Source of the DNA: Thioalkalivibrio versutus
GTDB lineage: Bacteria > Pseudomonadota > Gammaproteobacteria > Ectothiorhodospirales > Ectothiorhodospiraceae
Direction: 5' to 3'
Length of the DNA: 64,000 bases
NCBI RefSeq assembly: GCF_001999325.1
Contig: NZ_MVAR01000007.1
Location: forward strand, 77,591 to 141,590
Position 1 is the first letter of the stretch, and every line of letters starts with the position of its first letter. The translations under genes were made by a program, and so were the position numbers. Below, piece by piece: positions 49,871 through 51,769 of the stretch. Under the pieces are notes generated by a model, which was not told the DNA's origin, did no database searches, and saw only the letters and a program-made list of their open reading frames with translations.

Positions 49871-50737
49871 TCAGTCGTCGAAGGCGGCCCGGATGCGCTT
49901 GATCGCGCTGTTCTCGATCTGGCGGATGCGCTCGGCCGAAACGCCGTACTCCGCGGCCAGCTCGTGCAGTGTCGCCTTCTGATCGGCCATGTAGCGGCGC
50001 ATCAGGATGGTGCGCGAACGCTCGTCCAGTTCGCCCAGGGTCTCGCTAAGGCGTTCCTGATAGTGACGGTCCCAGTCCTCGTCCTCGGTCACATTGGCGG
50101 GGTCGTCGCTCAGGTCCTCCAGGCTCAGGCGTTCCGACGGGGCCTGGTAGCCGTATTCATCGTCGGCTTCGGGGCCCGGGTCGAAACTCGCATCCTGGCT
50201 CGAGAGGCGGCGTTCCATCTCCCAGACGTCCTTTTCGGAGACGCCCAGATCCTGCGCCACGGCGGAGACCTCGGCATTGGACAGCCAGCCGAGACGCTGC
50301 TTGGCACTGCGCAGGTTGAAGAACAGCTTGCGCTGGGCCTTGGTGGTCGCGACCTTCACGATGCGCCAGTTGCGCAGGATGAACTCGTGGATCTCGGCGC
50401 GAATCCAGTGCACGGCAAAGGACACCAGGCGCACGCCCTGATTCGGGTCGAAACGGCGGACGGCCTTCATCAGGCCCACGTTGCCTTCCTGGATCAGATC
50501 CCCCAGGGGCAGGCCATACCCCTTGTAGCCGCGCGCAACGTGGATCACGAAACGCAGGTTGTGCAGGATCAGCTGGCGTGCCGCATCCAGGTCCTGGCGC
50601 TCGTGCAGCGCCACGGCCAGTTCACGCTCGTGCTCGGCGTCCAGCACCTCGATGCGGCCAACGGCCTGCATGTAGTGATCAAGGTTGCCCACCGGTACGG
50701 GCATGTCGATGCGTGGAGTGGTCAGGGCCTGGTTCAT
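49871..50737 (-). CDS. rpoH: RNA polymerase heat-shock sigma factor RpoH (sigma-32)
   Basis: A 288-residue sigma-70 family protein. Region 2 has GDLIQEGNVGLMKAVRRFDPNQGVRLVSFAVHWIRAEI without its last residues, the RpoH-specific box reads QRKLFFNLRSAKQRL, and region 4 is LHELAAEYGVSAERIRQIE. The start MNQALTT has GGGAGGAAA upstream; an ATG 24 bp earlier is close to the operator and lacks a ribosome site. It is downstream of ftsX, the classic order, but has its own regulated promoter region with a CIRCE-like operator. Confidence 0.96.
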   Translation of the reverse strand: MNQALTTPRIDMPVPVGNLDHYMQAVGRIEVLDAEHERELAVALHERQDLDAARQLILHNLRFVIHVARGYKGYGLPLGDLIQEGNVGLMKAVRRFDPNQGVRLVSFAVHWIRAEIHEFILRNWRIVKVATTKAQRKLFFNLRSAKQRLGWLSNAEVSAVAQDLGVSEKDVWEMERRLSSQDASFDPGPEADDEYGYQAPSERLSLEDLSDDPANVTEDEDWDRHYQERLSETLGELDERSRTILMRRYMADQKATLHELAAEYGVSAERIRQIENSAIKRIRAAFDD

Positions 50738-50770
50738 GCGTGGTGTTTCCTCCCGAGTCATGACTCTACA

Positions 50771-50797
50771 TTAGCAGTCTGTGAATTGGAGTGCTAA
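50771..50797. promoter_or_regulatory. CIRCE-like operator (HrcA site) upstream of rpoH
   Basis: TTAGCAGTC-N9-GAGTGCTAA matches the CIRCE consensus TTAGCACTC-N9-GAGTGCTAA at 17 of 18 arm positions with the exact 9-base spacer. It lies 34-60 bp before the rpoH ATG. CIRCE is the binding site of the heat-sensitive repressor HrcA, normally on groESL or dnaKJ. Confidence 0.8.
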
Positions 50798-50839
50798 ACC
50801 CTGCAAAGGTTCCGGACGTTTCGTCCGGGGCGCGTGCCC

Positions 50840-51769
50840 CTAGGGGGCATCCCGCAGGGCATGGCCGCTGCCCAGCCGGGCGCCCAGCCAGCCGAGGAGG
50901 AGTCCGGCCAGGAGCAGGGCCAGGAGATGGGTGGCCCCGGGCAGGGACAGCCCCAACTCGAGATCGAACGCGGCCGCGGCCTGTTCCAGTGGCGCCCGGC
51001 TCAGGCCGATCCCGATGAGCAGCAGGATGCCGGCGAAAATGCCGCCGCCCAGGCCGGTCATCACGCCGCCGTAGAGGGAGGGTCGACGCAGGAACCGGTG
51101 GGTAGCCCCGCTGATCCGCGAGATGGCGATCTCTTCCCGGCGTTCGCGCAGCTCCGAGGCAGTCGCCAGGGCCAGGATCAGCAACGCCCCCAGCCCCAGC
51201 AGGGCGCCCACCACCGACAGGATGCGCAGCCCCAGCTGGTGCAGGCTGTTCAACTGCCGCACCCAGTCGTCGTCGCTGACCACCGTCGCACCCGGCACGG
51301 TGGCCGCAAGCGCCTCGCGCAGCGCCGCAACCGTCTCGGGATCCGCGGTCGCGGGGACCACATCCACCACGTCCGGCAGCGGGTTTTCGTCCAGCCAGTC
51401 CAGCAGGCCCGGGTCGGCCAGGCCCTCGCGATAGCGGGCCAGGGCCTCGTCGGCATCGATCCAGATCCAGCGTTCTACCCGGGCATCGGTCTCCAGGTGG
51501 CGTTCCAGATCCGCGACCGTGGCCGCCTCCACGCCGTCGAGGTAGAGGGCGATGCGTGGGTCGTGGTCCACGTGGGCGGACAGGGCGCGGGCGTTGTCCA
51601 GCAGGACCCAGAGGTAGGCCGGCAGGGCGAGGATGAAGCCCAGCACGGCAATGCTGATCAGGCTCAGAACCGGGGCCTGCAGGCGGCGCTGCAGGCTGCG
51701 CCGGGCGGCATCCCGATGGGCCTCCAGCCAGGCCGGCACGGTGTCCTGCAGGCGACGGCCCGGCTTCAT
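50840..51769 (-). CDS. ftsX: Cell division protein FtsX
   Basis: A 309-residue membrane protein with one helix near residue 40 (LSLISIAVLGFILALPAYLWVLL), a periplasmic domain (about 60-170) and three C-terminal helices, the FtsX layout. With FtsE it forms an ABC-like complex that activates peptidoglycan hydrolases at the septum. It overlaps ftsE by 4 bp. ftsX ends 42 bp before the CIRCE-like site. Confidence 0.94.
   Translation of the reverse strand: MKPGRRLQDTVPAWLEAHRDAARRSLQRRLQAPVLSLISIAVLGFILALPAYLWVLLDNARALSAHVDHDPRIALYLDGVEAATVADLERHLETDARVERWIWIDADEALARYREGLADPGLLDWLDENPLPDVVDVVPATADPETVAALREALAATVPGATVVSDDDWVRQLNSLHQLGLRILSVVGALLGLGALLILALATASELRERREEIAISRISGATHRFLRRPSLYGGVMTGLGGGIFAGILLLIGIGLSRAPLEQAAAAFDLELGLSLPGATHLLALLLAGLLLGWLGARLGSGHALRDAP

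Follow-up and report, generated by a model that had tools for sequence, protein, structure and literature searches.

The heat-shock sigma factor gene rpoH (sigma-32) of the salt-loving sulfur bacterium Thioalkalivibrio versutus is preceded by an inverted repeat of the CIRCE type that is very probably a genuine HrcA operator, predicted to repress rpoH transcription and laid over the promoters of the gene. The repeat overlaps a sigma-E-type promoter, and the link between rpoH and CIRCE is widespread in the Gammaproteobacteria. Both points go beyond the preliminary description of the locus, which had proposed that the HrcA repressor pathway feeds directly into the sigma factor gene. The arrangement suggests that three stress circuits, those of HrcA, sigma-32 and sigma-E, meet at the rpoH promoter.

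The locus lies in a stretch of 64,000 nucleotides (contig NZ_MVAR01000007.1, positions 77,591 to 141,590), hereafter the window, and its features are listed in the table below. The forward strand at 50771-50797 reads TTAGCAGTC-TGTGAATTG-GAGTGCTAA. It is identical to CIRCE, defined here as the inverted repeat TTAGCACTC-N9-GAGTGCTAA, at 17 of 18 arm positions and has the exact 9-nt spacer, which confirms the palindrome as originally described, one mismatch off the consensus. No match with up to three mismatches was found in 100 dinucleotide shuffles of the window. On the minus strand, the sequence ahead of rpoH reads CCGGAACCTTTGCAGGGTTTAGCACTCCAATTCACAGACTGCTAATGTAGAGTC, followed slightly downstream by GGGAGG and an ATG. 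With this ATG, at 50737, as the likely start, the gap between operator and rpoH is 33 bp (50738-50770); the 34 bp given earlier was thus right to one base. An alternative in-frame ATG at 50761 would lengthen rpoH, but the related locus L008 has ATA at that place, and the ribosome-binding-like GGGAGG stands ahead of 50737. The upstream neighbor, probably ftsX, is encoded on the same strand and ends 102 bp ahead of the likely rpoH start. The gene order ftsE-ftsX-rpoH is the same in E. coli.

Table. Features of the rpoH locus in window coordinates
Feature	Position	Strand	Remark
rpoH	49871..50737	-	sigma-32; 288 aa counted from the ATG at 50737
Ribosome-binding-like GGGAGG	50749..50754	-	ahead of the likely rpoH start codon; read off the sequence
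Extended -10-like TGCTAATGT	50768..50776	-	candidate sigma-70 promoter, weak here; built in part from the proximal CIRCE arm
CIRCE operator of rpoH	50771..50797	-	predicted HrcA site; minus strand reads TTAGCACTC-CAATTCACA-GACTGCTAA
Sigma-E-type -10 element TCCAA	50786..50790	-	distal CIRCE arm ends in this TC
Sigma-E-type -35 element GGAACCT	50807..50813	-	from comparison with class and genus loci
Probable ftsX	50840..51769	-	upstream neighbor of rpoH; name rests on position and gene order

The genome encodes the repressor. Its hrcA gene specifies a 352-aa protein that contains the two Pfam domains of HrcA (DNA-binding and C-terminal), so the objection that the genome might lack HrcA falls away. 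By sight, the open reading frames after hrcA read as grpE and then dnaK. In the whole genome of 2.83 Mb, three CIRCE-like sites with up to three mismatches were found, compared to none for the reversed pattern. Besides the rpoH site (one mismatch), these are located before groES (one mismatch, 62 bp ahead of the open reading frame) and before hrcA (three mismatches, 6 bp ahead of the start), so the search for further copies that had been suggested finds them on chaperone operons. The groESL and hrcA operon sites share operator, repressor and genome with the rpoH site. The target of the groESL site is a chaperone, whereas that of the rpoH site is a regulator.

Within the genus, CIRCE is found directly before rpoH in all 29 loci examined, the locus described here included, and the expectation that the palindrome would be conserved upstream of rpoH in relatives is borne out. 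The operators carry no mismatch in nine loci, one in 16 and two in four; the arms are kept and the spacers are variable. A thirtieth genome of the genus, 58% complete, yielded only a distant sigma factor match, without CIRCE. For the four Thioalkalivibrio strains compared, RpoH identity to the protein encoded here ranges from 86 to 96%. In all 28 genus genomes that have both the rpoH site and a second strong site, the rpoH site has no more mismatches than the second, which was taken as the groES site from its likeness to the groES site of T. versutus. In other genera of the family, CIRCE precedes rpoH in seven of seven loci (L034, L064-L069), with at most one mismatch.

The same association extends across the class. 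The sample comprised 168 genomes of at least 90% completeness, 158 of them with RpoH at E ≤ 1e-45. Upstream regions were compared for 151 rpoH genes from 149 genomes, which leaves nine RpoH-bearing genomes outside the count and spans at least 141 genera (RpoH occurs in 150, of which at most nine drop out). hrcA was found in 122 of the 168 genomes. CIRCE with up to three mismatches is located before rpoH in 103 of 111 genomes with hrcA but in only five of 38 without it (by rows of the comparison, 103/113 and 5/38). The Fisher p value for this co-occurrence, 2.6e-20, is nominal since the genomes are related. At the same threshold, none of 755 mononucleotide-shuffled regions matched. The site, its conserved position and its co-occurrence with hrcA are direct observations, and together they support the proposal that the repressor pathway would act on the sigma factor gene.

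Among the five genomes scored as lacking hrcA that nevertheless have the rpoH site, one carries a fragment of hrcA at the edge of a contig, another gives insignificant matches only and three have no match. In the latter three (G148, G155 and G052; loci L129, L219 and L208), no hrcA match was obtained even at E ≤ 1, which may reflect recent loss, an assembly gap or another binding protein. Conversely, eight of the 111 genomes with hrcA are without an rpoH CIRCE. One of these, L122 (G134), seems on inspection by eye to have a CIRCE with a shortened spacer: 8 nt, with a changed distal arm, behind GAACTT. Outside the class, one rpoH gene was taken from each of 40 of the 87 RpoH-bearing genomes of the same phylum, and CIRCE was found in a single case, L418 (G261). 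This site has two mismatches and lies behind a sigma-70-like TTGAC element. In a scan of named genomes, CIRCE precedes rpoH in 49 of the 80 loci kept, among the matches listed; GAAC stands at -16 to -14 in 42 of the 49, and an Alcanivorax sp. and a Chromatocurvus strain are examples of cultured relatives that carry the composite. Among the same listed matches, the Pseudomonas (0/9 loci), Halomonas, Cobetia, Kushneria and Marinobacter entries are without an rpoH CIRCE.

The consensus of the sigma-E -35 element is GGAACTT. Before rpoH, the promoter pattern GGAACTT-N16-TCNNA is present with one mismatch, as GGAACCT-N16-TCCAA. GAAC is found at -15 from CIRCE in 28 of the 29 genus loci, and a GAAC at this position places GGAACTT 16 nt before the TC that ends the distal CIRCE arm. 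For the class, the 108 CIRCE rows were divided by RpoE. GAAC starts 14-16 nt before CIRCE in 72 of 94 RpoE-positive rows (exactly at -15 in 60) compared to none of 14 RpoE-negative rows, where positive means a match over the NCBIfam cut-off and weaker RpoE-like matches were scored negative. In eight more RpoE-positive rows, GAAC and TCNAA are shifted together to a position just upstream of CIRCE, with the promoter spacing kept. Both layouts pooled account for 80/94 RpoE-positive and 0/14 RpoE-negative rows, and neither is found in the remaining 14 RpoE-positive rows. The A of TCNNA falls on the third spacer base, and 93% of the composite rows have A there, compared to 43% of the RpoE-negative rows. 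As with the operator, the spacing of the sigma-E type and its association with RpoE are seen directly in the aligned regions.

The genome of T. versutus has the corresponding regulators, with rpoE, rseA and rseB encoded adjacent to each other. A looser pattern, GAACTT-N16-TCC, is located before rpoE in all 20 full rpoE loci of the genus; a strict sigma-E pattern was found before rpoE in two of 29 loci, neither of them from the genus. In a control set of 18 groES CIRCEs (17 drawn from the best of the perfect class matches listed, and the groES site of T. versutus itself), inspection by eye showed no GAAC at the offset seen before rpoH; the rpoH layout is thus not a general property of CIRCE. 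A scan of the whole genome for the sigma-E pattern with up to one mismatch gave 21 matches compared to 27 for the reversed control, hence no enrichment over chance; at one mismatch the pattern is so loose that it has little power in a single genome. The argument for sigma-E therefore rests on the comparison between genomes. There, a stricter form of the pattern is found before rpoH in 50 of 97 rows with both hrcA and RpoE but in only one of 14 rows with RpoE and without hrcA. The element is thus associated with both hrcA and RpoE, and because of the latter count no claim is made that genomes which lost hrcA generally retain the sigma-E promoter. Taken together, the GGAACTT-N16-TCNNA element is likely an RpoE promoter of rpoH of the P3 type.

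A second candidate promoter is situated at the other end of the operator. A T three bases past the proximal arm is conserved in 89% of the composite rows and 93% of the RpoE-negative rows, and yields TGCTAANNT, an extended -10-like element made up in part of the operator arm. A scan of 50700-50900 for canonical sigma-70 promoters and terminators found none. By eye, most of the 18 groES CIRCEs have GAC about 25 nt, and TATTA- or TATCA-like bases just, ahead of the operator, which is suggestive of a sigma-70 promoter at groES.

In other bacteria, HrcA is kept active by GroEL. If the same holds here, HrcA bound to CIRCE would cover the -10 element of the RpoE promoter as well as the housekeeping extended -10 element and hold rpoH expression low. 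Heat or misfolded protein would occupy GroEL, upon which HrcA would release the operator. With HrcA off and sigma-E freed by envelope stress, rpoH would be transcribed, sigma-32 would rise and chaperones would be made. Free GroEL would then re-activate HrcA and close the loop, so that rpoH transcription would follow the level of free GroEL, and at the composite site envelope stress could activate rpoH only after HrcA has been released. HrcA binding, repression, derepression by heat and the use of either promoter are what we infer from the arrangement. A wider proposition, for which belief and doubt are about evenly balanced, is that the HrcA operator, fused to a sigma-E promoter through the shared TC and combined with an extended -10 element, forms an ancient heat-shock node that is general among Gammaproteobacteria with hrcA. 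In such a node, HrcA would sense how much GroEL is available and thereby gate the input to sigma-32 from envelope stress as well as the basal one. The arrangement of E. coli, in which rpoH is controlled by translation and protein stability and P3 is without CIRCE, would then be derived, having arisen after the loss of hrcA. A report that bears on repression concerns Xylella, in which, according to passages of a review (PMC11764788), nitrogen starvation raises hrcA more than 4-fold and rpoH 2-fold. The joint rise speaks against simple repression of rpoH by HrcA, provided that Xylella carries the site.

The palindrome might be a real operator that is placed on a sigma-70 promoter only, GGAAC then being either part of a longer HrcA operator or a conserved feature with no relation to it. 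The T after the proximal arm, which is kept with or without RpoE at the frequencies given above, fits this explanation, as do the unenriched sigma-E pattern in the T. versutus genome and the single strict match before rpoH among the 14 RpoE-positive rows without hrcA. It does not account for the absence of GAAC at the offset from all 14 RpoE-negative CIRCE rows and all 18 groES CIRCEs, for the eight rows in which GAAC and TCNAA move upstream jointly with intact promoter spacing, or for the same spacing before rpoE in 20/20 full genus loci, and is considered unlikely. Far less probable is that the repeat works at the RNA level, as a hairpin, a thermometer or an attenuator within the rpoH leader or within transcripts reading through from ftsX. 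Although the arms are complementary and ftsX, on the same strand, ends 102 bp before the likely start of rpoH, the fold energy does not improve on that of shuffled sequences (z 0.13) and no Rfam match was found in 50500-51100. Furthermore, the 72 altered arm pairs from sites with one to three mismatches comprise 28 broken pairs, 40 G-T pairs and only four Watson-Crick pairs, and the candidate promoters lie inside the repeat, so that their own transcripts would carry just part of it. A hairpin or thermometer was rejected for its lack of excess stability, the missing Rfam match and arm changes that mostly go without Watson-Crick compensation.

That the palindrome arose by chance or is a functionless relic is the least credible explanation. 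The three genomes with CIRCE but no hrcA match, and the fourth with insignificant matches only, speak in its favor. It is opposed by the empty shuffle controls (0/100 for the window, 0/755 for the regions), by the presence of the site in every genus locus examined and by its rarity in genomes without hrcA. A genuine HrcA operator laid over the rpoH promoters thus remains the preferred reading.

Parts of this arrangement have precedents. For Geobacter sulfurreducens, a CIRCE ahead of rpoH was already predicted in 2004, with the same operator and target gene and at -51 from the start (PMC545781, Table 8), and the link between HrcA and rpoH itself is therefore not new. That computed prediction concerned one delta-proteobacterial genome, and the available text of the paper mentions no overlap with sigma-E. 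In E. coli and Pseudomonas aeruginosa, the rpoH promoter P3 is described as a sigma-E/AlgU promoter in available portions of two papers (PMC8103513, PMC13104619), in both of which the word HrcA is absent. The likeness to the present site is that an RpoE-type promoter precedes rpoH, and the E. coli DNA has GAACTT-N16-TC; the difference is that here the -10 element sits inside a predicted HrcA operator. HrcA was not found in E. coli, one of 14 control genomes. The idea that E. coli retains a remnant of CIRCE, looked for by eye, was dropped. In the open-access literature searched, including the available text of PMC10696704 and PMC1978210, no account of HrcA acting on rpoH in Gammaproteobacteria was found. 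Nor was the sigma-E/CIRCE composite or its spread through the class found reported in that literature.

If most hrcA-bearing Gammaproteobacteria place rpoH under HrcA, chaperone feedback on sigma-32 would operate at the level of transcription as well as of the protein, and the repressor and sigma factor systems would form one circuit instead of two in parallel. The textbook account of how sigma-32 is controlled in heat shock derives from E. coli, in which HrcA was not found. The overlap with a sigma-E promoter offers a directly testable three-way junction, for which genomes that have or lack RpoE or HrcA form a natural series.

Two further features of individual operators were recorded. Locus L178 has a tandem pair of CIRCE-like palindromes before rpoH, of which the outer carries a single arm change; the genome of this locus (G046) has no RpoE over the cut-off. 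In the T. versutus site, the arm nearest to rpoH has GACTGC in place of GAGTGC (window position 50777). This change recurs in 11 of the 108 CIRCE rows of the class and in many members of the genus, and may set a weaker operator at rpoH.
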